Shown: one piece after another, positions 4,870-62,100 of the stretch
Layout of the letters: the number at the start of each line of letters is the position of its first letter
Numbering within the stretch: position 1 is the first letter of the stretch
Source of the DNA: Dasypus novemcinctus
Taxonomy: Eukaryota > Chordata > Mammalia > Cingulata > Dasypodidae
DNA length: 64,000 bases
Reading direction: 5' to 3'
Assembly: GCF_030445035.2 (NCBI RefSeq)
Contig: NC_080699.1
Span: 558,001 to 622,000, forward strand
Translations under genes and position numbers: made by a program
Notes under the pieces: model-generated
Databases searched by the model: none
What the model was told of the DNA's origin: nothing
Seen by the model: the letters and a program-made list of their open reading frames with translations, nothing else

Positions 4870-5345
4870 GTTGAGTCAGAAGCTAGAATTCAGGTAGCAG
4901 GGGCTGGAGGCAGGGGTAGGGACTGGGGAGTTAATGCTTAATTGGTACAGAATTTCTGCTTGGGATGGAAAGGTTTTGGTAATGGACAATGGTGATGGCG
5001 GCACAACACTGTGGAAGTAATTAACAGCACTGAATTATGTATTTGGCTTTTTAAAATTCTAATTATATGTTTTTTTAAATTATATTCTAATGTGGTTAAA
5101 AGGGAAAATTTTAGGTTGTATATATGTTAGTAAAATAAAAATAAAAAACCATAAGCCTGAACAACACAGGGAACTCTAATGTAAACTATGGGCTTTAGTT
5201 AGTACAATTACAATGTTCCTTCATTGCCTGTAACAGGTGCCGTGCTGGTGCAGGGTGGGAATGAGGGTGGGGGGTGGGGATCGTTATTTTCGTCACGATT
5301 TCCCGTGAACGTCCAACTCTTCTAATTAAAGTGTGTATAGAGCTC
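4870..5345 (+). mobile_element. L1 3'UTR remnant
   Basis: It aligns by eye with 17131-18180 (outside the nested SINE): 'ggatggaaaggttttgg', 'actgaatta', 'ttttaggttg', 'gggaactctaatgtaaactatgg'. It carries a GT-rich stretch near 5260-5285. No ORF is preserved. Confidence 0.6.
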
Positions 5346-12559: not shown

Positions 12560-15234
12560 ACACACACAAACAGCATTCCGATCTCTGTAAACACGCGAAT
12601 TCATAAGGCCATGAGAAGCACAAGCCCAGGACAATGGACAGACCCACGGGAGGCAGTGAGGACCTGCAAGTCACATTCGCCTCCGTCTGATCTTCAGAGA
12701 AGACTAAACTTTGAAGGAGGGCACCAGCCAATGCAGAGCCAATTTGCAAAGAATGTGAAAGATGTTTATGCATTGGTTTATTTTTGTCAGTTCTTGGCAC
12801 TCAAAGAAATCTGTCATGTCACTATCTGGATACAAACTTAAGGAACAGAGAGCTCAGAGTCTAAATCCCAGCATTAATACTTTTAAAATATTAAAATGTA
12901 CAGAGTACAACTAAAATTACAAGACAAACAGAAAATGATGGCCATCCAAATGGCAAGATAAAAATGCTGAAACCATCAACTAAGAAGGAACCAGACTTTG
13001 GACACACTAGACAAAGTCTTTTAAAAAATAATCCTTAATATGCTCAAAGAAGATAAAGGGAAACACGGAGAAAGAACTAAAGGATATCAGAAAAACAATG
13101 AATGAATACTATGAGAATCTCAAGAAAGAGACAAATTAAAAAAAAAAAAACAATCCTAAGAGAAATACTGAACTGAAAGGGAAAATTCCCTAGAGGGTTT
13201 CAACAACAGACTGGAGCTGGCAGAAGAAAGAATCAGTGAACTCAGATAAAATACATGAAATGATTCAGGTTAAGGAGCAGAAAGAAAAAAGAAAGGAAAG
13301 CAAAAGAGAGCCTTAAGACACTTGTGAGACCCCATCAGGCATACCAATGTATGCTTATGGGAGTTCCAGAAGAAGAAAAGAGAAATGGGAAGAAGGAATA
13401 TTCTAAGATATAATGGCAGAAAACTTCCCAAATTTACCAAAATATATTAAAATAGACATTCAAGAAACCAAACAAAACCCAAAGAGGATAAAACCACACC
13501 CAGACATATAGTAGTGAAAATGCTGAATGCCCAGGACAGGAGAGAATTCTGAAAGCTGTAAGAGAAAAGCAACGTGTTATGTACAAGGGAGCCCCAATAA
13601 GATTAAATGCTGATTTCCCATCAGAAACCATGGAGACAAGAAGATGATATATATAAATGCTGAAAGAAAACACTTGCTATCTAAGACTTTTGCAACCAGT
13701 GAGACTTTCAGAAATTAGGGGCAAATGAAGAATTCCCAGATAAATACAAGCTGAAGGAGTTCATCAGCACTCAATCTACATTACAAGCAATGTGAAATGG
13801 AGTTCTTCAGACTGAAAGGAAAGGATATGAGAGTGAAATAGAATAAAGAAAAACTGACCTTTGGTAAAGGTAATGATAGGGGTAATTATAAATACCTGTA
13901 CTAATGTATTATATTTTTTGGTAAGTAACCCTACTTTTTACTTCTTACAGGATCTAAAATGCAAATGCATAAAAACGAATGATAAATCTATGGTTTTGGA
14001 TATACAATGTATAAAGATACAATTTGTAAAAAGTACAGCAAAAAGGTAGGGAGATGGAGGGTATAGGAACAGTGTGAGTTCCATTGAAATTAAGTTGGTA
14101 TCAAATCAAACATGATTGTTATAGATGAGAATGTTACATTTAAGCCCCAAGGTAACCACAAAAATATATGAAAAATATATCTAGATTGAAATGAGAAGCA
14201 ATATAAATTTGCACGATACAAAATCAAATAAATAGGAAAGTAGGAATTAATTGAAAAATTGAGGGACAAAAAAGTTATAAGACTTCTAATGATCAAGTAG
14301 CAAAATGGCAGAAGAAAGTCCTGCATTATTAGTAGTGACTTGAAATGTAAATGGATTAAGCCCCACAGACAAAAGGGGAGACACACGGAATGGATAAAAA
14401 AGCACGATTCAACTGTATGTTGTTTCCAAGAGACTCACCTTAGACTGAAAGACTTAAGTAGTTTAAACAGAAAGGATGGAAAATATATACTATGTAATTA
14501 ATAACCAAAAAGGAGCTGAGGTAGCTATACTAATATCAGATAAAATAAACTTTAAGTCAAAAACCATTATGAGGGACAAAGAAGGTCACCATATACTGAA
14601 AAGGGTCAACAAGAAATACTAACACTTACAAATAAATATGCACCTAATATCAGAGCCCCAAAATATATGAAGCAAATACTGACAGATCTGAAGAAATAGG
14701 TGGTTCTACATTAATAGTAGAAGCCTTCAATGTGCCACTTTGAATAACAGATGGAACATCTAGACAGAAGATCAAAAAAGAAATAGAAGACTCAAACCAT
14801 ACTTTGAACCAACTAGACCTAACGTATGTAGAACACTTCACCCAAGAGAAACAGAACACACATTCTTCCTAGTGTACATGGACCATTCTGCAGTACTAAC
14901 CATTTGCTAGGTCACAAAACAAGTCTCAACAAGCTAAAAAATATTGAAATCATACAATAAATCTTCTCTGACCACAATGGAATGAAGCTAGAAATCAATA
15001 ACAGATGAGAAATGGAAAATACTCAAATATGTGTAAATTAGATAATGAACCATTAAGCAACCTGTGGGTCAAAGAAGAAATCACAAGGGAAATTAGGAAC
15101 TATCATGAGACAAATGAAAATGAAAACACAACATATCAAAACATGGGATGTAGCAAAGTCAGTACTGAAAGGGAATTTTACAGCTTTAAATGCTTACATT
15201 AAAAAAGATCTCAGATCAGAAAGCCATGCTCAAA
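12560..15234 (+). mobile_element. L1M element, 5' part: 5'UTR, ORF1, spacer, ORF2 endonuclease region
   Basis: The 5'UTR (12560-13010) and ORF1 (13010-13850, with a decayed 'VPEEEKRNG' segment near 13357) align with the antisense copy at 1758-3600. The L1M ORF1-ORF2 spacer follows (13860-14330), then ORF2 sequence reaching the end of the endonuclease domain (14330-15234, with 'FxETNENxxTTYQN'-like content near 15100-15140). All frames are broken. The element resumes at 16342 after an insertion. Confidence 0.7.
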
Positions 15235-15705
15235 GGTTCACTATCAAAAGGTTGCTTTTTATAGAGAAAGAAGCTCTGAACTCCAGAATGTGGTGATAGC
15301 AGCCTCATTAAGATTGGATACTTGTTTTCTGAGTCCAATTTGAGTTCTGCTTTGTATACCTACCGCTCATCTGTTTTGAGTGAAAATCCAGAAGACAGTT
15401 GCCAGCTGAGTTATTAACAATGCAACCAGGGAGATAGTGACCTATAAAAATGTGGCTGTAGATTTCACACAGAAAGAGTGGGCTCTGCTAGACACATCCC
15501 AGGGAAAGCTATTCAGTGCTGTGATGCTGGAGAATACCAATCTTCTGATGCAAAGATGTAATTTCCTAGTTCCAACAAGAAGTGTGGAGAGAAGGAATAG
15601 GAGCTCCCCCAAACCAGAGCCAGGCAGGAAAACTGGCTTTAAAAGGAAGAAATGATATTCATCCAACTTATCTGCAGGAAAGACGCTTCTAACGGCATGT
15701 CATTG
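15235..15705 (+). pseudogene. KRAB zinc-finger retropseudogene fragment (5'UTR plus KRAB A box)
   Basis: The frame from 15437 reads a clear KRAB A box, with [18 protein letters not shown] and then [18 protein letters not shown] boxes recruit TRIM28 in KRAB zinc-finger repressors. An ATG at 15420 with 'caaccaggg' follows the usual start of such genes, but one base is missing before the KRAB frame. After the A box comes a linker with PEPGRKT and a decayed segment. No zinc fingers follow. Exon-type boundaries are joined without introns, so the copy came from spliced RNA. It is fused on the right to an L1 3' end, and the whole unit is flanked by a 17-bp duplication. The parent gene is not identified. 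Confidence 0.75.
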
Positions 15706-16341
15706 GAAAAGTGCTGGGGATGATGCTGAGAAACTGTTGCAGGTGGAAATGTGAAAGGACGTAGCCACTGTGGTAAACAGTTCAATAACTCCTCAAAAGT
15801 TAAATTTAGAATTACCATGTGACCGAGAAATCCCACGCCTAGGTAAAGACCTCAGTTATTTATATAAATACATATACATGAATGTTCATGTCAGCAGTAT
15901 TCACAGCAGCCCAAAGGGATGGGCAGAGGATAAACCAAAGGTGGCACATTCATAACAGTGGGATGTTATAAAGCCATCAAAAGCCATGAAGTACAGACTC
16001 ATGACACAGTTGGAATGTACTTGAAAAGGCTACTAAGTGAAAGAAGCCTACCACAAAACATATTGTATGTTTCCATTTATAGTAAATGGACCAGAGTTAA
16101 TTCCACAGATAAAATGAAGCTTAATGGTGATTGTCGGGGTCTGGAGCAAGGGATTGGTACAGAAACCTTAATGGTACAGTGTTATCTTTTGGGATAATGT
16201 AACTATTTCGGAATTAGACAGAAATGATGGTTGTACAACATTGTGAAAGTACTAAATGCCACTGAATTCTATACTGTAAAATGGATAATTACCAGTTTTG
16301 TGAATTTCACTTCAATAAAAAATTAAAAAACAAACAACAAA
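15706..16341 (+). mobile_element. L1 3' end fused to the KRAB retrocopy
   Basis: From about 15706 the sequence follows the ORF2 C-terminus and 3'UTR of an old L1 ('gtagccactgtggtaaacag', 'aattaccatgtgacc', 'agtgaaagaagcctaccacaaaac'). It ends with 'cttcaataaaaaattaaaaaac' and an A-rich tail. The right flank 'agaaacccatgctcaaa' (16342-16358) repeats the left flank 'agaaagccatgctcaaa' (15218-15234) with one mismatch. Confidence 0.75.
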
Positions 16342-16440
16342 AGAAACCCATGCTCAAATCTAGAAGAACTAGAAAAAGCAGAACAAACTAAAGCTAAATT
16401 GAGAAGAAAGAAAATAAAGATCAGAGCAGGAGTAAATGAA
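16342..16440 (+). mobile_element. L1M ORF2 continuation after insertion
   Basis: 'gaagaactagaaaaagcagaacaaac' continues the ORF2 sequence that stopped at 15234, so the host L1M is one element split by the chimeric insertion. Confidence 0.65.
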
Positions 16441-16444
16441 ATAG

Positions 16445-16580
16445 AGCAGGGGTTCTTAACAAGGGGTCTCTGAACTTGAACTGAAAATCAAAACAACATT
16501 ACTCTTGTGGTGAAGTGTTGGTGCAAGTGTAATATATTTACTAAAGAATACACAACATAGTGTGGACTTAGTAAGGTGTA
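16445..16580 (+). repeat. Medium-reiterated repeat, second copy
   Basis: It matches the rejoined repeat at 5931-6370 ('gggttcttaacaagggg', 'attactcttgtgg', 'gttggtgcaagtg', 'agtgtgga'). No SINE interrupts this copy. Confidence 0.6.
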
Positions 16581-16584
16581 TTTC

Positions 16585-17040
16585 TGTTTATAGTAATCTT
16601 ATAAACAGAAAATCCTTAAAAGTCCACAGCAAAGATACTGGAACTAATAAATACATTCAGCAAAGTAGCAGGTACAAGAGCAACACACAAAAATTACTAG
16701 CATTTCTATACACAAGCAATGAATACTTGAACATTGTTGCACACAGATGTTCATAGCAACATTAGTCACGGTTCCCAAAAGACGGAAGCAACCCAATTGT
16801 CCATCAACCAATGAGGGGATAAATAAAACATGGTATGTACATACAATGGACTATTATTCAGCTGTAAAAATGAAGTTCTGATACATTTAACAACATGGCT
16901 GAACCCTGAAGACATCATGTTGAGAGTAATCAGCCAGACACAAAAGGACAAATATTACATGATCTCACTGATACGAAATAATTAGAATAAGCCAATTCAT
17001 AGTCAGAAGCTAGAATAAAAGAAAATAAACACCTCCTCTC
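16585..17040 (+). mobile_element. L1 3' end (ORF2 C-terminus)
   Basis: 'gttcatagcaacattagtcacgg', 'caacccaattgtccatcaacc', 'ggactattattcagc' and 'cagacacaaaaggacaaatatt' are in the usual order of the L1 3' end. The frames are broken. Confidence 0.7.
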
Positions 17041-17130
17041 TAGGAGCAAATGTAGCTCAGGGTTGAGCTTGCTTTGCCATGTAAGAAGTCCTGAGTTCAA
17101 TCCCCAGTAACTCCTAAAAAAAAAAAAAAG
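17041..17130 (+). mobile_element. DAS-type SINE monomer
   Basis: The tRNA-like head ('gcaaatgtagctcagggttgagc', 'gagttcaatcccc') is followed by 'ctcct' and an A13 run. It is inserted in L1 3' sequence. Confidence 0.78.
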
Positions 17131-18185
17131 GCCCGAATCTAGGTTACCTGACACCAGGGTAGGGGCAGGGAATGGTGAATTAAAGTTTATTAAAGCAAAA
17201 CTTTTGTGTGGAGTGATGGAAAGGTTTTGGAAATGGAAAGTCGTGAATAGTTGCACATGGTGAATGTGACTGAGCACTGAATTACATATTTGACTGCGGT
17301 TAGAAGGGGAAACTGGGAAGCGGATATGGCTCAAGTGATTAGGCCTCTGCCTACCATATAGGAGGACCCGGGTTGGATCCCTGGGGCCTCCTGGTGAAAA
17401 AGAAGAGGCGAAAGCATGCCTGGGGCAGTGAGCCAGCTCCCACGTGGTGAGCTGAGTGCCAATGTGGTGAGCTGAGGGCCCATGTGGGTGCCCATGCCAT
17501 GAGCCGAGTGCCCGCATGAATGCCCACTGTCCAGCTAAGGGCCCACGTGAGTGCCTGTGTGGTGAGCCAGTGCCCACACGACGAGCCCAGTTCCCATGTG
17601 AGTGCCCGTGTGGTGAGCTAATGCCCGTGTGGGAAGCCAGTATCCGCGTGGTGAGCCAAGTGCCCGCACAAGTGTGAGTCATGCAGCAAGATGACGCAAC
17701 AAAAGAAAGACGAAGGGGAGAGTCAAAGTGAAGTGCAGCAGAGACCAGGAACTGAGGTGATGCAACTGGCAGGGAACCTCTCTCCACATCAGAGGTCCCT
17801 AGGATCGAATCCAGGTGAATCCTAGAGGAACAATGAGGAAACAAAAAGAGAAATAGATACAGAAGATCACACAGCGAATGGACAGACAGCAAAAACAGCA
17901 GGGCGGTGAAGGGAAGAAAAAATAAAGTGCAAAAACCCCACAGAACACCAAAAACAAACAAAAAAGGGGAAACTTTAGGTTGCACATACTAGAAAATATT
18001 TTAAACCACAGCCTTGTTCAACACAGTGACCCTAATATTAACTATGGACTACAGTTAATAATACACTTATAATATTCTTCTATCAATTGTAGCAAAGTTA
18101 CCACACACTAATGCAAGGTGTTAATAATGGGGGAGTCTATATGGAAACACTGTATTTTCTGCATGATTTTTTCATTAAACCTACA
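17131..18185 (+). mobile_element. L1 3'UTR interrupted by a long SINE
   Basis: The flanks 17131-17317 and 17971-18185 join to a 3'UTR that matches 4870-5345 ('atggaaaggttttgg', 'ttaactatggactacagtt', 'ccacacactaatgcaaggtgttaataatggggg'). The SINE at 17318-17970 interrupts it. Confidence 0.65.
17318..17970 (+). mobile_element. Long dimeric DAS-type SINE with expanded internal repeats
   Basis: A tRNA-like head ('gaagcggatatggctcaagtg') and a second tRNA-like unit (about 17750-17830, 'ggtccctaggatcgaatcc') flank a region of short GC-rich repeats (17425-17680) built around 'gtggtgagc'. The same subfamily at 47612-47965 has almost none of these repeats. A 351-codon antisense frame across it is incidental. 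Confidence 0.75.
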
Positions 18186-26149: not shown

Positions 26150-29100
26150 GTATGATTTATTTGGAATAAAGTTTCAAATTATTTGTTTTACCAAATTTTT
26201 TTTTTTTTTTTTTTTTTTTTACATTAGGGTATTTTAAATAAAATCTTGTATTTAAAACCCTTTTCTGGATGTACAGGAACCCTGGTTCTTTTATTAACTA
26301 GTTTTGGAACATTGAAGAATGGGCTGAGATAGTAAATAAATTGAAGAAGAGTTTGGGAATAGGTCTTATTTGACTCATTAATTATTGGAAAATAGTTAAA
26401 TATCACTTTTTAAATTACGTGTAACCAACGAAGATTAGAGCAGGAAGATTAGAATGACTTTGAAGTAGACTTATTGGAAGGATTTTTAGCTGCTGAATCA
26501 AATTTATTAGGGAAATGGTAGATTGTCCGTTTTTAGAGGTCTTTTTTCTAATAAAACAGTTAATTGCAAGGCAGGTTTTAGGTGCTATTCTGTCTAAAAT
26601 TGAAGTGATGTACTACAAATCTGGAGTTTTCATCTGGATTTGCCTCCCTTCATCTGGGCTATACTTCTTTTGAGTAATACTTACCAGTTTAGCCTTGTAT
26701 AGACTACTTGAGAACAGCTGTCCTGTTAGGGCTTTGGGGAACTATAAATAAAATAGCTAATCGGAGGGCTATAGAAGTACTTTTGGGATTTTTTTTTTCT
26801 GGGTTAATTGGATTTTCTGCTTTATACAGGCCTTATCTGATATGATAACAATATTCAGGAGAACTAATAAGCCTAAAGAGAATTCATTTGAGATCCAAGT
26901 AGCTTTTCAAAAAAAGCTCAAGTAAGCCTCCATTCATAAAACCTATTAAATACTCATTCTTTAGGTTCGAGAACAAGAAAGGGATATTGCATTACAGATA
27001 AGAGAAGATATAAAACAGAGGAGATATCAGCAATTCACGCGTTTGGCAGAGGAGCTAAGGGCAGAATGGGAAGAATCACAAACTCAGAAAGTTAAAAGCT
27101 TGGAAAAATTGTATTTGGCAAGTTTAAGAAATGTGGGAGAGGGACATCGACAAGCCAAAGAAAATGTGAGTGCTTTACTGGTTAAAACTTTAGTTATTGA
27201 ATGCTTATATGATAAAAATGTTTTTGTAATATAGAATTTGTTTGAGGCAGCCTGAATGTTTTAAAGTAAGTTTAATACAATTTGAGAAGAATGCTTCTAG
27301 GTACATTTCCTAGTAATTGTCAGCTAAAATATGTTTTTCTATCATGTTTAAATATTTTCTTTCATTCCTTATCTATATATATAAACTTAATAATAACCTG
27401 GAACAGAAATTGTCATTCGTTTCAATTTTGGACAGATTCAGTAGAATGAATTTATATTGCCCATTTAGTGTCATTCTTCATACTTCTTTTTTTTTTTTTT
27501 TAAAGATTTATTTTTATTTATTTAATTCCCCTCCCCTCCTCCGGTTGTCTGTTTTCTGTGTCTTTTTGCTGCGTCTTGTTTCTTTGTCCACCTTTGTTGT
27601 CATCAGCGGCACGGGAAGAGTGGGTGGCACCATTCCTCGGCAGGCTGCCCTCTCCTTCGCGCTGGGTGGCTCTCCCTATGGGTGCACTCCCTGCGCGTGG
27701 GGCTCCCCCACGCGGGGGACACCCCTGTGTGGCAAGGCACTCCCTGCGCGCATCAGCACTGTGCATGGGCCAGCTCCACACGGGTCAAGGAGGCCCGGGG
27801 CTTGAACCGCGGACCTCCCATGTGGTAGACCGACGCCCTAACCACTGGGCCAAAGTCGGTTTCCCTCTTCATACTTCTACACAAGCATGGTTGCATATAC
27901 ATGCACTTGGATTTCATTCATAAATAGTAAACTTCAGTGATTTTCAAAAAGGCAAAGTAGAATTTATTCCATATTTAAGACTGTTACCTGAACTTATTTT
28001 GATTTGTTTATTGTGATCTATGATTGGAAAATACTAGATTGCTGATTCTGAAGAAGGCAAATTCTTGGATAGCTACTAATTGTTTAATGAAGAAAAATAT
28101 TTTTAAAGAATATGGCAATCAGGGAAGTGGACGTGGCTCAATCAACAGAGCGTCCACCTACCATATGGAAGGTCCAGTGTTCGATACCCAGGACCTCCTG
28201 ACCTGTGTGGTAAGCTGGCTCACACGCAGTGCTGCCATACGCAAGGAGTGCCATGCCATGCAGGGGTGCCCCTGCGTAGGGGTCCCCCACACCCTGCAAG
28301 GAGAGCTGCCCCGTGTGAAAAAAGCACAGCCTGCCCAGGAGTGGTGCCGCACACACGGGGAGCTGATGCAGCAAGATGATGCAACAAAAAGAGATGCAGT
28401 TTCCCGGTGCTGCCTGATAATGCAAGCGGACACAGAGAGCACACAACCGGGGGGTGGGAGGGGAAGAGAAATAAATCTTTAAAAAAAAAAAAAAAGAATA
28501 TGGCAATCAGATATGGTCCTTGGGTCTTTTGTTTTAGTCTGTATTTTAGTAACAGCCCTAACTTCTGACATCTGATTTTTTTTTAAAGATTTATTTTTAT
28601 TTATTTAATTCCCCTCCCCTCCCCTCCCCCAGTTGTCTGCCTTCTGTGTCTTTTTGCTGCGTCTTGTTTCTTTGTCCGCTTCTGTTGTTGTCAGCAGCAT
28701 GGGAAGTGTGGGTGGCACCATTCCTTGGCAGGCTGCACTTTTTTTCGCCCTGGGTGGCTCTCCTTACGGGTGCACTCCTTGCGCGTGGGGCTCCCCTACG
28801 CGGGGGACACCCCTGTGTGGCACGGCACTCCTTGCGCGCATCAGCACTGCGCATGGGCCAGCTCCACATGGGTCAAGGAGGCCCGGGGTTTGAACCGCGG
28901 ACCTCCCATGTGGTAGACGGACGCCCTAACCACTGGGCCAAAGTCCGTTTCCCTGACATCTGATTTTTATAGCTGTTTATGTTCTACCATTAGCTTTATG
29001 CAAGTTCAGATGTTCGTATTTGTCCTGTATACACTCATATGAAGTGTCATTGGTGATAGCATTACCACACTTTGGAAAACACTGCTGTAGTGTATGAGAA

Positions 29101-38100: not shown

Positions 38101-41100
38101 TTTTCTTAGATTCTTAAGTATTCTTTAAAAATACGATTTTAACAACCACTTACTATTTCATCATTGAATTTGTTTCATCTTTCTCCTATTCCATTTTTTG
38201 CTTTTGTAAATAATGCTAACATAATCTTGTACATTTTTGGCCACATCCTTCTTACATGTTTAAAATAAATTCCTGGGAGAGAAATTATTGGCTCTTGGTC
38301 TAAATTATATAAACATTTTAAGACTGTTGGTACAGATCAGTAAAACATCGATACCTTTTGCTAAGGGCTATCTTATATCCTGTTTGCTTGGTATATTATG
38401 GTTTAAAAAATTACTGTCAGTCTTAATGACAAATGGTATCTCCTTGTTATTACAACCTCGACCTCTTCATAATAGTGGTATTTCTCTTTCTTTCCTTTTT
38501 TTCCCCATGTTTATGGACATATTTGGCTACTAGGAAAATAAACTTTCTCAATATAGCATTCATACAGATCTTTGAAAGGACCAGAAACACATTTTGTTGA
38601 CTGCTTAATTTTAAGCAGGTATAAGGGAAGTGGACTTGGCCCAGTGGTTAGGTTGTCCGTCTACCACATGGGAGGTCCGCGGTTCAAACCCCGGGCCTCC
38701 TTGACCCATGTGGAGCTGGCCCATGCGCAGTGCTGATGCGCGCAAGGAGTGCCCTGCCATGCAGGGGTGTCCCACGCATAGGGGAGCCCCACTTGCAAGG
38801 AGTGCGCCCCATAAGGAGAGCCGCCCAGCGTGAAAGAAAGTGCAGCCTGCCCAGGAATGGCGCTGCACACACGGAGAGCTGACACAAGATGATGCAACAG
38901 AAAGAAACACAGATTCTCGTGCCTCTGACAACAGAAGTGGACAAAAACAAGATGCAGCAAATAGACACAGAGAACAGACAACCGGGGTGGGGAGGGAAGG
39001 GAGAGAAATAAATAAATCTTTTAAAAATTTTTTTAAGCAGGTATTAAAATCAATATTCAGTCAAGACCTAAATTGAATATCACCATCATAGAATAAACTT
39101 CTAGGATAACAGAATAAATCTGAGATTTTATTTAAAATCTTAAATTGTTGGTAGAATTTCAATTTTAGTCTAGGAATAATAACTTGAGTCTATTGCTAAA
39201 TTGTGTAGTTGCCACACTCCATTTTTGCAATATTGGTAATCCCTTTCAACTGAGATTAATAAAGAAAGGTTTGTTTGGCTGGCTCCATCAGTTTGAGGTC
39301 CTGTTGATTGTGTTAAGTCATTAAGCTTTATTTTTTGATAGTAGCTAAAAGACCTACGTTCTCTTTGACTTTTGAACTTGAAGATTGCATCAGTAGTTAT
39401 AATGCAATTTTATAAAAGTCCCACAAACTAAATCTTTGTGTACTGATTGAAGAAGATGCTTTCTAAAAATTTCATATCCTTGAAACTCCTAAATTATTCA
39501 TGGCCTTTAACTTGTTCCTTTGTCAATGGTGGTTGCTTAGCACTTTTAAAAAGGGTTTTTTTTAATTTTAGAAATATTTCTCTAATCAGATCCACTACAT
39601 TGTTTGCTATGAAACCCGGAAATGTCTGTAAATAAGTAAAACTGAACAGTTAAACTAAGTTATCATCAATTCATCACTCTGTCAAACTTAAAAAAGACTT
39701 CTATCCAAATGTCTGATGTGCAAGACATGGAAGTAGTTATTTTAATAATATCATTTATTATAAAGTTATCAAAAAGTTTTTGAGAAAATGTTTTCTAAAA
39801 ATTTTTTGCTTGGGATTCATAGTTTATGTAAATTCTTTTTTTCCTTCAACTGAAAATTGAATCTGCAATTATTTTGATGAGATTTTTGTTTAAATTTTTA
39901 ATTTCATTGACAGAAATCTATAAAAGATTGTCTTCCTAATGCATTCTTATAAAATATTGGTTTGAAATTTAGTAAGAACAGAATTTTGGGGAGCGATGTA
40001 GCTTGGTGGTTGAGCACCTGCTTTGCATTTTGAGGGTACTGGGTTCAACTCCCAGTACCTCCTAAAAAAAAAAGAAGAAAATTTGTTTTGGGTATCTAAT
40101 TTTTCTCTAGCCCTTTTTTTCCTTCATATTCTTCATATGCTTTATTATGTCTGGATTGAAAATGTTTATCATACATGTTGTGTGTTATTTTGAAGTTTTT
40201 CCTTCTCTTAAAATTTTGACCAAAATTGACATTCTGCTTTTAATTTACCCTCGAAATATGTGAAGCATTCTTAATAACTCTTACTGGAAAACATCCTGGC
40301 CTAAATGGAATAAAATACTGTCTTCAAAGATTATTTTGTTTAATGTTATACAAGTTATACTAAATAGGCTAAATAAGTCTGCAAAGATTACAATTGTTAT
40401 TTAACTTAACCTTTGTTATTGTGCCTGGTATTATTTGGATTTGCTAAAATTTATTGCTTTGAAAGGGACATAATATTTTTCATAATCTGTTTGGCCAGTG
40501 TACTCTTCTTTTTACTTGAGCAGCTATACCTAAGAAATAGTATTGAGGTACTTCACTTGCACCTGATTTATATGATGAGATCCTTCTTTCTTAATGTATT
40601 AGCTGTTAGTCTCTTTACTTATCTGTCTCACTACTTGAGAGTCTTTAATAATTTTGAATAAAAAGTTAATAGCTTTTACAGTTGTGATTAATTATTGTTT
40701 CGTCTGACATAGAATTTTAGTAAAAGTGCATAGGATTTTCACTCCAAGATACATTTAGGGTATCTACCTGTATTTGAAAGTGAATGTTCACATAATAATA
40801 AACCCTGTTCTGTACATTTTTTGTATTACTGCTATGCTAATGAGGTGATGGCTGGCTGTACAGTCACATAATGATTGATTATGCATGAGCTCTAGGAAGC
40901 CAGAAGTGATACCGAAGCAGGGGTTCTGTACTTCATGATCCAAGCTGCAGGTTTTTGCTGAAAACTAAAGCCAGACTTGGTGATTCCCTAAATTGTTACT
41001 TGATTTTTGTGTTTTCTTAATTACTAGATTTGTAGATGTTTACCTTCCAATATTTGGTTTTAATGGAATTTCTTTACTTTAAAAAAAAAAAAAGGAGGAA

Positions 41101-47100: not shown

Positions 47101-50100
47101 CAGCAAACACCCTCCAACCAGGCATTGACTAAGAGGGCTGCCAAAGAGCACCATCTGCTGGCCGGCTAAGGAAGTGCAACTGAGGAAATTAAAAGTGAAA
47201 AATAAGGGGTTTTCCCAGCCTTTAAGCCTCTCCCCACGGCCCTAGGAAGGGGGTCTGCAACTCATCCTGGGTCCAGGGCCCAGAGCTGAGCCCCTAGCAG
47301 GAACAATCCTAAAGACCCAGAACAGGTTGAACCAAGAACCAAAGAATAGCAGTAACAGTCTCCTGCTACTAAATGCCTGCTAAAAAGAGAAACTGAGCAT
47401 CCGCGTAAACACAACATCATAATCAAAATGCCTTGACATCAGCAGAAAATTACAAGCCATTCTAAGAAAATGGAAGAAATGGCCAAAAAAGGAATATATC
47501 AAAGCTTCAAAATAGATACTTGTTTTGAGACAACTATTCAACTATTTGCACACAAATTTAGAAATCAAATTAATGACTTGAAAGACAATATAGTTAAAGA
47601 TATAAAGGATAGGGAGGCGGATGTGGCTCAAGTGATTGGGCTTCTGTCTAGATCCCTGGGGCTTCCTGGTAAAGGCGTGCCCATGCAGTGATCCAGTGCT
47701 GTGCAGGGAGCCATAGAACAATATGATGATGCAACAAAAGAGAGACGAAGGGCAGAGCCAAGGCGAGACACAACAGAAACCAGGAATTGAGGTGGTGCAA
47801 TTGACAGGGAACCTCTCTCTACATTAGAGGTCCCCAAGATTGACTCCTAGTGAATCCTAGAGGAGAAAACGAGAAGAGAAGACTAAAAGAGAAATAGAAG
47901 ATCACACTGTGAATGGACACAGCAAAAACAGCAGAGTGGGGTAGGGAGGGGGAGGAAAAAAAAAGAGATAAAGGACATCAAAAAAGACATCGAGCACTAA
48001 GAAGAATTTGAAAACCTGAATGGAAAAGTAACAGAACTCATGGGAATGAAAGACATCATAAGTGAGATCAAAGATACATGAGAGGCATACAACAGCAGAC
48101 TCAAAATGATAGAAGAAAGAATAAGCGATAAGACAACAACTGAAATTGAAGAGAGAAGAGAATGGAAAATATAGAGCAGGGGCTCAGAGAGTTGAATAAT
48201 AAAGCACAACAACATATGTGTCATGGAAGTTTCAGAAGGAGAAGTGAAGGGAAAAGGGGCAGAAAGAGTATCTGAGGAAATAATAGCTGAAAATTTTTGA
48301 AGTCACACAAAAGAAATGAACTTATATGTTTAGGAGGCTAAGCATAACCAAATCAGAGTAAACGTTGAATAGACTTAAGACACATACTGCTCAGAATGTC
48401 AAACGTCAAAGATAAAGAGAAGATTCTGAGAACAGCAAGGGAGAAGCAAGCCATCACATACAAGGGTCTCCTAGTAAGACTTTCTGCAGATTTCTCATCA
48501 GAAACCATGGAGGAGAGAAGATAGTGGTATAATACAATTAGGATATGGAAAGCAAAAAAATGCCAGCCTAGAATTCTTTATTGAATAAAATTGTCCTTCA
48601 GATACGAAGGGAAGTTTAAAATATTCACAAATAGAAATGAACAGTTCAACACAAGAAAATCAACATAATATACCACGTTAACAAATTGAAGGGAAAAAAA
48701 GCATGTGATTATCTCAATCTACAGAGAAAAGGCATTCAACAAAATCCATTATCCTTTCTTGATAAAAACACTTCAAAAAATAGAAATAGAAAGGAAATTC
48801 CTCAATATGATAAAAGACATATATGAAAAACCCACAGCCAACATTGCACTCAATGGGGAAAGGTTGAAAACTTTCCCTCTAAGATCGGGAACAAGACAGG
48901 GATGCCTGCCGTCACCATTATTCAGTATTGTGCTGGAAGTTCTAGGCAGGGCAATTAGACAAGGAAAAAAAGGTGTCCAAGTAGAAAAAGAGGAGGTAAA
49001 ACTATCACTGTTTGTGGATGACATGATCCTGTACTTAGAAAATTCTGACATATTCACAACAAAGCTGCTTGAGCTAATGAGTTCAGCAAAGTGGCAGGAT
49101 ACAAGATTATGCAAAAATCAGTAATGTTTTTGTAATCTAGTACTGAACAATCTGAGGAGGAAATGGGGGAACATTACATTTTCAATTGCAACAAAAAGAC
49201 TCAAATACCTAGGAATTAACCAAATAAGTACAGGATCTGTATGCAGAAAACTACAAAAACACTGCTAAAAGAAATTTTAAAAGACCTAAAAAATGGAAAG
49301 ACATTCTGTGTTCGTGGATTGGAAGAATAAATATCGTGGAGATGTCAGTCTTACCCAAACTGATTTATAGGTTCAATGTAATACCAATCAAAATCTCAAC
49401 AGCTTACTATACAGAATTAGAAAAGGCAATTACCAAGTTCATTTGGAAGAGAAAGTGCCCCGAATATCCAAAAACATTCTAAAAAAGTAGAATGATGTGG
49501 GAAGAATTTCACTGCCTGACCTTGAAACATTACGAAGCTACAGTGGTCAAAGCAGCATGGTACTGGTATAAAGATAGACACATCGACCAGTGGAATAGAA
49601 TTGAGAATCCAGAAATAAACCATCTGTACAGTCAGCTGATTTTTTACAAACCTACCAAGTTAATGGGACAAAACAGTCTTCAACAAATGGTGCTGGAAAA
49701 ACTGGATATCTATAATCAAAAGAATGAAGGAGGACCCCTTTCTAACTCCTTATAGAAGAATCAACTCAAAATGGATCAAAGACCTAAATATGAAAGCCAG
49801 GACCATAAAAGTACTAGAAGAAAATGTAAAGAAATAACTTCAAGAACTTGTAGTAGGTGGTGGTTTCTCGGACCTTAAACCCAAAGCACATGCAACAAAA
49901 GAAAAAAATAGATAAGTGGGGTTTTGTCAAAAGGGTGAAAAGGCAGCCAACTCAATGGGAGAAAATATTTACACATCATGTATCTGATAAAGGTTTACTA
50001 TCTAGGATATATAAAGAGCTGTTACAACTAAAAAAGACAAACAACCCAATTGAAAAATGGGCAAAAGACTTGAATAGATATTTGTCCAAAGAAAAATATA

Positions 50101-53100
50101 AATGGCAAAAAAACCACATGAAGAAATATTCAACATCACTATTCACTAGGGAAATGCAAATCAAAACTACAGTGAGATATTTCCCACCTATCAGAATGGC
50201 CACTATTAAAAAGAACTACAAGTGATGGAGAGGATGTAGAGAGAGAGGAACACTTATTCACTGTTGGTGGGAATGCAGAATGGTATAGCCACTGTGGAGG
50301 ACTGTTTGGCAGTCTCTAAAGAAGTTGAATATAGACTTGCCACGTAACCCTGCAATACCACTACTGGGTGTATATCCAGAGGAACTGAGAGCAGTGACAC
50401 GAACAGACATCTGCACACCAGTGTTCATGGCGGCATTATTCATGATAGCCAAAAGTTGGAAACAACCCATGTGTCCCATCAACCGATGAATGGATAAACA
50501 AACTGTGATGTATTCGCACACTGGAATATTATGCAGTTATAAGAAGCAATGAAGTCGTAAAGCATATGACAGCATGGATGAACCTGGAGGATATTATGTT
50601 GAGCAAAGCAAGCCAGACACAAAAGGACAAATACTGTATGATTATATGTCTATGAACCAAATATATTGTGTAACATATTGTATGATTTTAAAAAAAATTT
50701 ATATGTATCCAGTGCATTTGAGAAATGGATGTTTTTGTTCAATTGTGGGGTTTTTTTTAGTTTTTGTTTATATTTTCAATTACTAAATATACTAAATAAA
50801 GTTAAAATAATGCATTATAAATTTTTTATGTAAAGATGTGTAACTGATGAAAAAAAAAGAGTGCAACAAATTGACCTGGGAGCAATAATGTGACAGAAAT
50901 TGATAATTGAGCTCAGTGTTAAGGATGAATAAGAATTGAGCCATAAGAGATAGCATAAACTAGCAAGCATACAGCATGCTTAATAGCTATTACTATATGA
51001 TCACAGTGCCCTTTCCAGTTAGAGCAGCAAAGAAATCTGTGTTACACTAGATGATTTGGAAAGTATAATAGCTGTATCATCAGGTCATGGGTATTTTCTG
51101 TTTGATTTATCCTTGATAAAACTTTGAAATATATCATTGAGCCAAACCACCTGAATATGAGTGTCTTATGATTTCTGAAATATCCCTTTCTTCCATCATC
51201 TTATCTTTTAGCTTCCTACCTTAGACAATTTGGCAAGATAAAAAAATGAAGTGAAATATTGAGAAGAACCAAGATAAGGCCATAACCATTGCTCACTGTC
51301 TTTCCCTCCAATATAACACAGTAGCAGGAGATTCCATAAAACCAGTTCATGTTGGTCTCGTGTGTTAGAGGCACTGTTGTTCGGGATTTTTATTATGTGC
51401 CTCGTTTTGACATCATAGATGTGGGGAAAGGAAAAGCTATACTTTTTACTGCGTGCTCACTATGGATTTGAAATGGACAGTGAAGTGGTCAAGCAGTCAG
51501 CAGTGGGATTCACCCAGCCGAGCAGCAAGAGTGCGGCCTTGAGTTTAGCCAGACTTTGTGTCCACCCCCTGATCTACTGTGGGATGCTTGAACTTCAGTT
51601 AGTTTACTTGTAAAATACGGATTCTGGTTCTCATCACCTACCATCTCTGGAAGATATTATAGAATACATGGCACATCATAGGCGCTTAATAATGTTTCTT
51701 TAATGAAGAAAAAAAGTTGAGTTACAAGGTAGGAAAGGGAGGTTGAAATCAGTTTATATGTCCTTAAAGCCATACAAGGGAGTTTGGCTCAAACTGTGAA
51801 TTGACACGAACTGATCTGTTTTTAGAGAACCCCTAGCAATTTGGGGGTTAGATTAGCTGCGAGGGCTGTGTCAGGCACTTTCCCAGGAATCAGTGAGAGC
51901 CCCAGACCCACTCCTAGTGGTTTGTAGACCCAACTATTAGATCTGCCTTGGCATTTTCTCCCCTCAGCATGTGTACATGTGGAAGAAGGGGACCCCTTTC
52001 ACTGTGAGGAGGCTCCTCCACACGGTCAGCTGGGTGAGCATCGCTTTGAAAGGCTCACCCTCAAGCACGGCAAGGAGCCTCCAAGTCCCAGCGGTCTTTG
52101 GGGCCCCCTCTGCATTTTCCATCCAGGAGGCTTTTTTATTTTTTATTTTTATTTCTCCCCACCCTCTTGTTTGCACTTGCTGTATCTGTTCATCTTTGTT
52201 TCTTTAGGACAGAAGGCATCTTTTTAACCTACTACTTTGCAGCCTCTAACATGCCAGGAACCAAGTGTAAATAATAAAGCTTTCTGCAGAATTAAAAAAA
52301 AAGTATGTCCTACCTCCATCTTAGATGATGGTTAAAACATGTATATTTGTTCTTAATCAGCATATACAGAACATTTGCATTCCCCATATTTGTTAAAATA
52401 GCTAACCTCAAACTCTCTTCGGTCCAAATTACCCAAAAGTAATGTGTATGTAGGATCAACTTTTATTTTTCTCAAGAAGAGCTGGCCAGGTAGGAACTGT
52501 ATTGAACTGAAGAACCTGTGTTGTAGCTACAGGGTATCTTTTAACAATCCTGGAAAATATGTCATCTAATATGGCCACTTCTGATTCTTGTTGTTATATC
52601 CTTCTCTAACTTTATTTAAATGAATTTTAGACCTTACTTGAATCCTTTTAATGTCTTAATTTATCTTTAATGTTTGTTACTAATATCTCTATCTCTAAGC
52701 TACATTCTGGATAATAAGTTATCTTCCAGATTTACTAATTTTCCCTTCAGTTGAGTCTTATCTCCTTAACCTATCCATTGGGTTTTAATTTTTTAAAATA
52801 TATTTTTCAATTCTAGAAGCTAGAGTAGATGTAGCTCAAGTAGTTGCCTACTTCCCATATACGAGGTCCTGGGTTCAGTTGCTGGTATCTCCTAAAAATA
52901 ACAGACGAAAAAAACCTACTTGGTTGTGTGTGTGTGTGTGTATAACATATATCTTGTTACGTGCTTTTTAAGTCTGCCATGTTTTAAAACATTAAACATT
53001 CATTTTATATTGTCTATTCTAATATCGAAGTTCTTGCATATGTGATTGTGCTGTGAGTTCTTCTGGCACTTGCACATGGTATCTGATTTTGTTGTATAAT

Positions 53101-56100: not shown

Positions 56101-59100
56101 ATGTGTAGGGTAATTGTAAATGAGTCTAACACTGTTACATTGGGGAGCATATATTTCAAAGTGAGGCCCATTGACAGGGTGCCAAATTGCTGAGATTGTC
56201 TGCCCTGCCTATATGTCTAGATTTCTCTAAAGCCCTCAGGAGCCCCAATGTTTGAGGCATTGCTTCCTGTGGCCATCAGTGAGGTCCTGCAGAGATGCGA
56301 ATAAGGGTAACCTCTGGCATGACCTCCCAACTCACTTTGAAATCTCTTAGCCATAAAAATTCATTTGTATTTAATATTTCCCCCTTTTGGTCAAGGTCTT
56401 TTTCTAGATGCGTTGCTAGTTGGTACTTGGTAATAGTCCCTCATTGCCAGGGAGGCTTATCCCTGAGAATCATGCCCCATGCTGGGGGGAAGGTAGTATA
56501 TTTATATGCTGAGTTTGGCTTAGAGAGAGGCCACGTGAGCAACAAGGGGGCTTTCAGGAGGTAACTCTTAGGCAATATATAATACTAGGCTAAGTTTCAA
56601 TTTCATAAGCAAAGGTTCCTAAGTACAACCATCAGTATCAAGGGCTGGTGTTAATGGTCTGTCCTTCCCTAGGCACTGCCCATGTACTCAAGAGATTCTT
56701 GCAGTTCTGTTAGAGAGTTCCCCAGGATGGGAATACAACATTCTTTCTGTTATTGTTTGAGGTCTATTCTTGTTCACCTCTGCATTTTCAGCTTTTAGCT
56801 CATAATTAGCACTTAAATGGATAAGTGAGTGAGGGAATAAATGTTTAATGTGGAATTTCTGGCAATCCTGATTTTATCAGAGTAAGTTGCTTTAAGATGC
56901 TTTAACTTCCTTCTCTGCTCAGGTTTCAAAAATAATAAAATCCCTAGTATCTAAATATGTCAAAGATATGTTGACATTTCTTTAGCTTGTCTTTTTCAGC
57001 TTCTGTACCTTGTTTGTTCTGTATTTTATGCTTTTACATCATGTTTGTGATCCTGTCAGCATACTATCAATTTTTCTTTGCTTCCTTTTTGTTCACACTT
57101 TTATCTTCCATCTGTGTTCTTGTATTGGGCTTGGATCTAATAGATGATAATCTGATCATCAGGAAAGTGACTGGGTCTTGACTGAGACATTCAGGTGGAC
57201 CACAATTATTAATCTGAAAGCACATTTTGGTTTTGTTGTTTTGTCTTACTAACTATGTTCATAATAACAATGGTATCTATTTTACAGTTACTGAAAGTGA
57301 TATACTAACCATTGAGTCTGGACCACTTACCAGTGAAGATAAACCACTTTCATGCAGTATAGACTCTGGAAAGGAACAAGGTATTGCTTTTTAATCACAT
57401 GCACAAACTTGCTTAACTCTTCACATCTTTTTCCTAATAAAATTATATGTATATGAATGAAAGGGCATTATAGTAGTGTCAAAATTCTAAATTGTTGAAA
57501 CTAATTTTTGTTTTGGGGATTCTCTTAGAAATAAATGAGACTCAGCCAACCTCAGTTGTTGCTCAGAGTTTAGTTCTTCTACTTCATCCTCAAGAGGAAA
57601 CAACCAAAATTAGAATATCAGCAAGGCAGAAACAGGTAATTATGAAATTTTATTTTTTTTTTTAAAGGTTTCTTTCTTCAGGTAGGTACTCTTAATTTTG
57701 TTTGGCCAGTGAAATTTGCCTTAATATCCAGATACTTTTGAGATGAAAGCTCATTACTTACTTCTTGGGTAATTGGTTCTTTTGGTAATGAAAGATAGTT
57801 CTGTTTATTGTAATACATGTCAACTTTTCTTTTGTATGAATTTGTTGTTGAATGATCAGTAGTATTTTTATTACATAGATAATGGAAATAGAAGAGCAGA
57901 AGCAAAAGCAGTTAGAATTACTTGAACAAATTGAACAACAAAAGTTAAGATTAGAAACTGACTGCTTCAGGGCTCATCTGGAAGAAGAAAAAAGAAAAAA
58001 CACTCAACAGCCTCAGGTAGGATGCAAGAAATCTCATCCCTACAAAGTTCATTGGCAGGGGCCGGGGGAAAGAGAAAAATTGAGCAATCTAGCATTTAGA
58101 AAAGTTAGCCTTTCTAAATCTTAATTGGTCATTTTTTCCTTTTAATATACATGTATAAAAATAAGTTTGCATCAACCTAATGGCTTTCATCTTTCAGTTT
58201 CTACAGGATTCCAGTAGATATGATTATGATTTGTATGTAATATATATGTTGAACTTTTGGACTTGGCACTAAAGGAGAACAGTGATTTACTCCATTTCTT
58301 TATAATGGGAAGTGTCAGTCTTGTCTTCAAACATAAAGCTACATGAAGTTTAAAATTTTAGAACTTCAGTGTTTGTATGATATACTTTAGTACTTGTTTC
58401 TGAATTTGCCTTTTAATTAGTAGCTTTGTCTTTTATCAGGTTGGCATTGTTTCAGCATCATGTGCCATAATTTCTGATGAAGAAAGTCATAGGCAGATGA
58501 TTCGTAACTATCAACATCAGCTTTTAGAGCAAAACAGGTATTACCTAGGGTACAATTTATATTTGATTGTGTGTAGCCACATCTTCAGGGTTTTATTATC
58601 TGGGGTATTTGAGGATCTTACTGGGATTCCCTTCAGACCATGGCATATAAATTTCTCAAAGGATGGTGGGTGAGAATTGTTCCTTTTCCACCACGATAAT
58701 GACCAACTGTAGTTTGCTTTTTGTTAAATTTAATGTATAGACACTTGAAGATGTGGGGGATTTTGTTTTTTTCATATATGACAAGTAATTTTTGTTTGTT
58801 TGTTTTGGTAGGTTACACAGACAATCTGTTGAAACTGCCAGGAAACAATTACATGAATATCAGTCTATGCTAAAAGAAAGGTACCCATCCATGTTAGCTA
58901 CATCATTGACATCTCATTCTGTTTTATCAGTACCACCGCAGAAATCTGAGAGACCCAATGTTACATCAGAGCATTGGAATCACAGTGAGAGACCCAAGTT
59001 GCATCCCAACAAATATCAACCCATACAGATCTCCAAATTAGAACAGGATCATTTTCAGGTACCAAAACAGAATCTCTTTCCACAAAGACAAATGGAAACA

Positions 59101-62100
59101 ACAGAAGTAATAAGCACTTCAGATGTTTTAGCTAAGCAGTCTTTAGAATTACAAGGGCATCTAAGGCTATTCTCACAGACTGAAACACAACAGAGAGACT
59201 ATAAATTGGTCCCTGAAGATTCTTATAGACTTTCAAGGGCTTTGTCACATGACAGGCTACTAAGATTTGAAGATGCTAAAAAAATACCTCAAACACCTAG
59301 GGTAACAGCTTTTCAAACTATAGACTCCCAACGGATGTTCTTAGAAAACGGGGAAAGTATGTCTTCTAAGCTGACTGAACCCTTGTCATTTCTACCCCTG
59401 GCAGCTGAGCATTCTTTTAGTTCTCTGCCTGCTAAAACTGAGTCTGGAGGAACCCAGGAACCCTTTTCAGCCAGGAAAAAAAGTCCAATTTCCTTTTGCC
59501 ATTCTGGGGTCAGCCAAATGCACGGTAGGTCTTTTCCATCCTCACAGCAAGTTGGGGCTGAGCAAAGTAATTTAAAGACTCTCCAAGAAGAGTTGGACCT
59601 ACAAAGGGAAGTTCTTCAGACCAGACAGGAAGCTCAGGAACAGTTGCTTATGTGCAAACAGAAAGAATTGGAAGAGCAAATTGGGCTCTCTTTATTCCTT
59701 CCTTTGGTAGCTTCACTGCCTTCTGCTGAAGCTGAACTGGGGAGAATCCATGAGTCTTCTCCAACCAAGGAGGAAACTGCTGTTTCCTCAGGCCATCTTA
59801 TGGTCCCACAATTTCAGAATAGGCTTTTGAGTGTTTCACAGCCTATCTTAGCACAAGAAGATAATGTTAAATTTCCCCAAGAACAGTTGAATATTCAGAG
59901 GGACAGCCTTCACTCTAGGCAGGGAGCCCAGGAAGTATTCGTTGTACCAGAACAGAAAGAATTGGATAGAAGAGTATCTTCTTTGCAAGCTGAACCCTCT
60001 TCTGTCCCTTCTCAAGTAGCTCAGGATACTTCATCACCTTCTGCTGAAATTAAATCTGGAAAAGTCCAGGAACATTGTTCACCTAAGAGTGAGGAAGGGA
60101 TCCTCTCAAGTCAATCTGAGATCCCCAAGTCCCAGGATAGGTCTTTGAGTTTCCAACAGCAGTTTTTACCTCTGCATGAGAGTTTACATTTACTTCAGGA
60201 ACCGCTGATTGCACTGCAGGATACTCTTCAGGCTAGGCATGAAGCCCAGGTAGAATTACTTTTATATGGACAAAAGGATTTGGGGGACAATAAGTCTGAG
60301 CAGATGGGTTCTTCATCCTCAGCAGTGGCCGCTCAATGTTCTGTTGCTCCGCAAACGTCTATTAAAGCTGAGCCTAGAAGGATTCAGAAACTTTATTTGT
60401 CTGATAAGGAGGATACAGTTCCCTCAAGTCATTTGGTAATCCCGACATTTCAGAATAAGTCTCTTGGTTTTCCACATCATAGCTTACCACAGCAAGAAAA
60501 CCTGACAGTGCTCCAGGAACAGTCACACATACAGAAGGTAATGTTTGGTGCCAAACAGGAAACTCAAGAATTTGTAGACAAACAATGTGAATTGGAAAAA
60601 ATAATTTCTTCTGAACAGACTGGCCCCTCTTCCTCCCTTTCCCAGGGAGCTAAATCTGAAGCATTACAGGAATTGATGTCAATCAAGAGTGAAAATACAG
60701 TTCCCTTAAGCCATTCTAAGAACTCAAGATTTCAAGAGAGCCTTTTAAGATTTTCTGAACATACACTACCTCTACAGGGCCGTTTGGATAGACGCCAAGA
60801 AAGATTAGACACAGAGAAAAAGGTTCTTCATTTTAGCCAGAAACCCCAAGAAAATTTATCTTCTGAACGAACTGCCTCCTCTTCATTTATACCCCGGTTA
60901 GAACAGCTTTCTTTTACTTCATTACCTTCTGCTGGTACAATCCAGGAACCTTTTTCAATAGAGAGTGATAGTAAAATACCTTCAAGCTATTTTCAGATTC
61001 CACAATTGCAGGATAGGCTTTTGAGAATATCACAGTGTATCTGTCCTCAACAAGATAATTTGAAGGCCCTTCAGGAACACTTAGCTATGCAGAGGGAAGC
61101 CATCATTCAGTCTAGACGAGAAGCACAGGAAGAATTACTTTTACATAAACAGAGGGAATGGAAGGAGAGAATATCTCCTGAGCATGTTGGCACCTCTTCC
61201 TTCTTACCCTTAGTAGCACAACATTCGTTTGCCTCGCTACCTCTTACTGAATCTGAAAGAATTGAAGAACCTTTTACAACTAAGAATGATAATAGAGTCT
61301 CCTCACATTATTCTGAAATACCAAGATTGCCTGATAGACTTTGGGGATTATCACAATCTGTTTTACCTCAACAAGATAATTCAATTACATTTCAGGAACA
61401 CTTGCATGCACGGACAAATGCCCTTGGTTCTAGCGAAAAAACTGAAAAAGAATTGGTTTTGCCAAGACAATGTGAATTTGAGGAAAAGATATCATCTGAT
61501 CAGTTTATCCAGCCTCACTGTCGTGACTTAAAGGCACTTCAGGAGCAGTTAGATATACAAAGGAAAGCCATTCGATCTAGTCAGGAAGTCCAAGAAGAAT
61601 TGATTTTGCAAAGATTATGTAAGTTGGAAAAAAGGGTATCACCTGAGAAAATTAGCTCTTCCTTCTTACTCCGGATACCATTGCCTATTGCTAATTCTGA
61701 AAGAACTCAAGAACCTTTCTCAACCAAGAGTAAGGGTATTCCTTCAAGTCATCCTGAGATGCCAGGGTCACAGGGTGGTCTTTTGAGGTTATCACAGCCC
61801 ATTCTTGCTCAGCAAGATAGTTTGACAGCACTTAAAGAACAATCGGACTTCCAAAGGGAAGTGGTAAGTTCTAATGAGAAAGCCCAGGAAGAAATGCTTT
61901 TAAACAAACCAAGTAAATTAAACAAAAGTGACTCTTCCAAAGATGCTGATCCCTCTTTGTTTCTACACAAGGAAACAGAGCATTTTTTTTTTCCATTCCC
62001 TTTTGCTGAAGCTAAATCTGAAAGTATATGTGAATTATATTCATCTGAGAATGAGCATATACCTCCCTTCATTGATTCTACCTCACGTGTTCAAGATAGA

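Follow-up and report, generated by a model that had tools for sequence, protein, structure and literature searches.

The window that we analyzed, a 64,000-nucleotide stretch of DNA from the armadillo Dasypus novemcinctus, holds a 1107-bp insert (positions 15235 to 16341) that splits the ORF2 of an older L1 element. This insert is bipartite, with the apparent 5′ part of a KRAB transcript joined directly to the 3′ end of an L1, and both parts lie on the same strand. It is a new example of the already known mRNA/L1 chimera kind. That a single L1-mediated insertion carried both parts is well supported, and the KRAB mRNA and the L1 RNA of that insertion were probably joined in trans, either through a template switch or through RNA ligation.

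A preliminary description of this DNA had L1 ORF2 sequence stopping at 15234 and resuming at 16342, and both flanks bear this out. The translation of the left flank (14292 to 15236) matched residues 23 to 313 of human L1 ORF2p at positions 14370 to 15221 (E = 1.7e-30). We assign the interval from 14304, a putative start, to 15234 on the plus strand to the endonuclease part of the host L1 ORF2. The translation of the right flank (16342 to 16455) matched residues 319 to 351 of the same human ORF2p chain at 16354 to 16446, with a weak E value of 0.21 owing to the shortness of the match, and the host ORF2 right of the insertion is placed at 16359 to 16446, also on the plus strand. The flanks were then spliced in silico, minus the insert and one copy of the 17-mer described below, which gave a single frame that is open across the junction. 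This reading aligned with ORF2p residues 309 to 351 without a gap at the junction, at the weak E values of 0.04 to 0.2 for five L1 reverse transcriptase sequences. The protein search with the joined flanks returned 17 sequences, of which four are named LINE-1 ORF2 protein and one, over the same stretch, RNA-directed DNA polymerase; the remaining twelve matches all fell on a single receptor kinase, with E values of 2.8 or higher. Just upstream of the junction, the joined-flank frame has a stop, and the ORF2 similarity of the host L1 is found there in another frame. Thus, the host L1 is itself decayed. Given this decay, the codon count across the joined flanks would be consistent with an insertion.

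The host L1 also looks rearranged further downstream. The segment from 16447 to 16595 had no match to the window L1 at 48000 to 51000, and the pieces at 16596 to 16723 and 16738 to 16963 matched 49026 to 49147 and 50412 to 50642, respectively. When 16737 to 17000 was searched against the PDB, ORF2p residues 1235 to 1275 were found at E = 0.38, ranked below a chance match to PRDM9. On the other side, an L1 fragment at 13171 to 13796 matches 48060 to 48681, presumably ORF2. Because it lies upstream of the putative ORF2 start at 14304, it may be a second L1 fragment located ahead of the host L1. Elsewhere in the window, a 1190-aa open frame at 58792 to 62364 matched no Pfam family and resembles the large exon of CEP295. 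ARAGORN reported a tRNA-Gly gene (anticodon acc) at 38629 to 38702 on the plus strand, which is possibly a tRNA-derived repeat.

The insert is bounded by the 17-bp sequences AGAAAGCCATGCTCAAA (15218 to 15234) and AGAAACCCATGCTCAAA (16342 to 16358), the left and right copies of a target-site duplication. The two copies are identical at 16 of 17 positions, so that the single differing base that had been described is correct. When about 2 million pairs of 17-mers were drawn at random from the whole window, identity never exceeded 14 bases. Among about 2 million pairs from the A-rich surroundings (13000 to 17900), two pairs shared 15 bases and none shared 16. The 17-mer was matched at 14 bases or better only at its two flank sites. 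The nick site on the bottom strand, TTCT/GA, has four of the six bases of the L1 endonuclease consensus TTTT/AA (also given in PMC13174262), a score equaled by about 10% of local positions. This likeness would lend weak support to L1-mediated insertion. If a genomic fragment containing KRAB and L1 sequence had instead reached the L1 by segmental duplication, the 17-bp duplication and the A-rich tail at one end would need explaining, as would the missing intron between the A box and the linker, insofar as the approximate alignment presented below holds. No point in favor of such a duplication was found, and we give it next to no credence.

The 3′ part of the insert (15709 to 16319, plus strand) consists of the last part of an L1 ORF2 and the L1 3′UTR and is 5′ truncated. 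Positions 15709 to 16081 aligned to the L1 copy at 50220 to 50652 of the window with a score of 121, compared to a maximum of 40.5 among 300 composition shuffles. Positions 16116 to 16316 aligned to an L1 3′UTR at 4879 to 5091 with a score of 96, compared to a maximum of 46 among 300 shuffles. An AATAAA at 16314 to 16319 and an impure A-rich tail at 16320 to 16341 on the plus strand were read directly. The L1 3′ end with its AATAAA and A-rich tail had been recognized correctly. A PDB search with the L1 reading of the insert returned two unrelated chains (E = 0.48 and 0.71) and no ORF2p, and for this reason the L1 end is demonstrated here through DNA alignment with the window copies. A zinc-finger-like reading near 15755 to 15800 was rejected, as this stretch is L1 sequence according to the alignment with 50220 to 50652.

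The 5′ part of the insert contains a KRAB A box in an open frame at 15437 to 15547 on the plus strand (Pfam PF01352, E = 3.8e-15, profile positions 2 to 38 of 42). Three KRAB sequences in the PDB matched this box: ZNF568 (E = 5.5e-7), a RIKEN cDNA (E = 2.9e-6), and ZNF93 (E = 4.9e-5). This part had been described as a KRAB 5′UTR and A box reaching to about 15705. The A box holds, whereas the 5′UTR label was not backed by any match. The bases in question, the first 196 of the insert (15235 to 15430, plus strand), begin with GG after the duplication and are termed the presumed 5′UTR and start of the KRAB transcript by position alone. We found no homologue of them and no good match within the window, the single weak window match being that of 15316 to 15395 to 26786 to 26862 (68% over 82 columns, E = 0.012).

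The host part seems to extend beyond the A box, to about 15708. As the alignment partner after the A box, we used an approximate N-terminal sequence of a ZNF705-type protein, composed once the translation of the insert had already been seen, so that the alignment serves as a lead and not as a test. This approximate sequence aligned to the A box at 15431 to 15550 (E = 7e-13) and, at a modest E value of 7.4e-4, to a linker preceding the fingers at 15604 to 15708. A query of B box plus linker gave E = 4.1e-4 against the approximate protein sequence, while the best of 100 shuffles gave 0.001. A KRAB-B-like match to the same protein at 15576 to 15665 (E = 0.31, or 0.19 with a shorter query) fell within the background of that search, which includes a match at E = 0.051 in the L1 part. 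This possible KRAB-B stretch lies on the plus strand in another frame and, by eye, may begin at 15552, with a stop inside. The linker on the plus strand, a candidate start of the zinc-finger exon, contains one stop, overlaps the B-like match in a different frame, and ends at the join with the L1; it too is to be read as a lead.

The A box and the linker-like stretch, the latter of which was matched to the approximate protein sequence only, are collinear within 278 bases. If this alignment is right, there would be no intron between them and the host part would be spliced. By the presumed exon boundary, the join would be about 85 bases inside the zinc-finger exon. Compared to the approximate ZNF705-type sequence, about 8 to 10 codons around the KRAB A/B exon junction (15551 to 15575) are missing and the frame shifts; either these codons were deleted or the parent used an alternative splice site. 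In the protein database, none of 42 word-sharing candidates matched the KRAB part at E = 0.001, and a further query gave no candidate. Because these searches yielded no significant KRAB relative, no parent gene is named. A literature search with KRAB-B peptide strings found nothing, and nowhere else in the window did the KRAB part have a good match. The KRAB copy looks like a decayed pseudogene, and we claim no function for it.

Two separate alignments meet at the inner join, the host-side match having its last base at 15708 and the L1-side match its first at 15709. Ungapped identity to the window L1 was 18 of 23 bases right after the start at 15709 versus 8 of 40 right before it. The stretch before the join was compared with upstream L1 sequence in four ways, and every score remained under the shuffle maximum. 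There was no run of five or more A or T bases within 200 bases of the join, and the join region shared no 9-mer, with up to one mismatch, with either end of the insert. The duplication encloses the whole composite, and neither a tail nor a duplication was found at the inner boundary. A lone KRAB retrocopy would be expected to leave both. Since there was no sign of either, and no further L1 homology before the join, our data agree with the earlier proposal that one event inserted both the KRAB and L1 parts. Two insertions or a later rearrangement, in which the L1 end arrived first and a KRAB retrocopy landed beside it and lost its own tail, could in principle occur in a repeat-dense place, and the host L1 itself looks rearranged. 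The duplication around the whole and an inner join with no tail or duplication make this scenario very improbable.

We propose that target-primed reverse transcription would have placed the 1107-bp hybrid in the older L1. An L1 RNA would have been reverse transcribed from its A-rich tail for about 610 bases into the L1. Copying would then have passed to the 5′ portion of a spliced mRNA from a KRAB zinc-finger gene, entering it about 85 bases inside the zinc-finger exon and heading to its 5′ end. The KRAB part would thereby have passed through RNA. The two RNAs were probably joined in trans in either of two ways, a template switch by the L1 reverse transcriptase or a prior ligation of two RNA fragments, and these yield an identical product. 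A point against a trans join is that template switching into the interior of an mRNA would require either an internal landing site or prior breakage of that mRNA.

The bases at the join bear on whether splicing could have connected the two parts. We examined the L1 side in the window copy at 50220 to 50652, the only copy found to reach the join (E = 1e-3). Just before the join, this copy reads AC and not AG. Its closest AG is 6 bases further upstream, and an acceptor there would bring in sequence unlike that of the insert. With an identity to the insert of only about 58%, the copy may differ from the source L1. In the splicing scenario, cis- or trans-splicing would have connected a KRAB pre-mRNA to an L1 acceptor, followed by retroposition of the product; this origin has been proposed for human mRNA/L1 chimeras. 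The sense orientation and the apparent inclusion of the 5′ part of the transcript do fit that human class. However, besides the missing AG, the host part seems to end within an exon (going by the approximate protein sequence), and the L1 part is heavily 5′ truncated. We therefore consider splicing improbable. Since that window copy has no AG at the join and the host match continues in the presumed zinc-finger exon, splicing becomes the less likely route, and an apparent join inside an exon, with no L1 splice acceptor, seems to favor template switching or RNA ligation.

The absent AG and the apparent in-exon join speak against an L1 last exon added by splicing, but they are compatible with an L1 that had been inserted into the exon. 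A KRAB gene or pseudogene could have received a 5′-truncated sense L1 in its zinc-finger exon, and a spliced transcript of this fused parent, ending at the L1 poly(A) signal, could have been retroposed whole. This would give the same structure, i.e., a KRAB 5′ part, an in-exon join, the L1 AATAAA, and a tail. KRAB genes sit in repeat-rich clusters, and an endonuclease-like site with four of six bases is found 20 nucleotides upstream of the join, although four of six is common. A fused parent requires an earlier exonic insertion as well as later transcription and retroposition, and the window search, in which the KRAB part had no second good match, also counts against it. We regard this origin as unlikely, albeit with a real share of the probability, and retain a trans join as our preferred reading. 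A more specific version of the trans join is offered tentatively and with some doubt. In an ancestor of this mammal, the L1 reverse transcriptase may have left its own RNA and continued inside a spliced KRAB mRNA, whose zinc-finger protein possibly repressed that very L1 family. The chimera would then have arisen via template switching and not splicing, a route that is disfavored for those human mRNA/L1 chimeras with splice junctions.

Taken together, the insert preserves, with clear boundaries, an old case of RNA recombination associated with L1 insertion, in which the partner was a protein-coding mRNA and the join is seemingly in an exon. Such cases bear on the question of whether mRNA/L1 chimeras arise by splicing alone or also by template switching or ligation. 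Such inserts also show the scattering of pieces of regulatory genes, in this case a KRAB box.

A limited literature search with few terms found no report of a KRAB/L1 chimera. The armadillo insert has the makeup of an L1-mediated chimeric retrogene, as its target-site duplication surrounds the composite, its 3′ side is a LINE 3′ end with an A-rich, if impure, tail, and the 5′ part of the KRAB transcript is joined directly to it with neither a tail nor a duplication between the parts. Like a processed pseudogene, it has an apparently intronless host part, a tail, and a target-site duplication. Unlike a processed pseudogene, it lacks the 3′ end, fingers, and poly(A) of the host gene and has an L1 end instead. 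Chimeric retrogenes of the U6/L1 kind were reportedly studied by Buzdin in 2003 and Moldovan in 2019. As described in PMC4476161 and PMC2104539, these retrogenes share with our insert a bipartite structure, a 5′-truncated L1 at the 3′ side, a target-site duplication, and sense orientation. They differ in their host part, which is a small RNA and not a KRAB zinc-finger mRNA. Chimeras of this kind have been attributed to template switching or RNA ligation (PMC4476161, PMC13174262). PMC4476161 also describes 3′-truncated, internally joined partners for U5 and U3 and template switching from birds to mammals. In PMC2104539, fungal chimeras are both bipartite and tripartite, and tripartite ones are reported for mouse and human. 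The xenarthran genomes analyzed in PMC13251070 hold the highest retrocopy numbers reported among mammals, and the word chimera was not found in the passages of that source that we examined.

The closest class by host part comes from Law and Burns (2026, PMC13174262), who describe more than 700 L1 chimeras; in hg38, 17 involve mRNAs or lncRNAs. Among these 17 cases, 15 are in the sense orientation, 6 end exactly at splice donors, and 4 are undeterminable; no ZNF name occurs in the main text. The mRNA/lncRNA chimeras are described there as having predominantly near full-length L1, and for one of them template switching is not favored given its splice junction. As in these mRNA/LINE-1 chimeras, the armadillo insert combines the 5′ part of a sense host mRNA with the 5′ end of an L1 sequence, one target-site duplication around both, and an L1 tail. 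In contrast to them, its L1 part is only about 0.6 kb and its join is seemingly inside an exon. Thus, by its L1 part the armadillo insert is similar to U6/L1 chimeras, and by its host part it is similar to the mRNA class.
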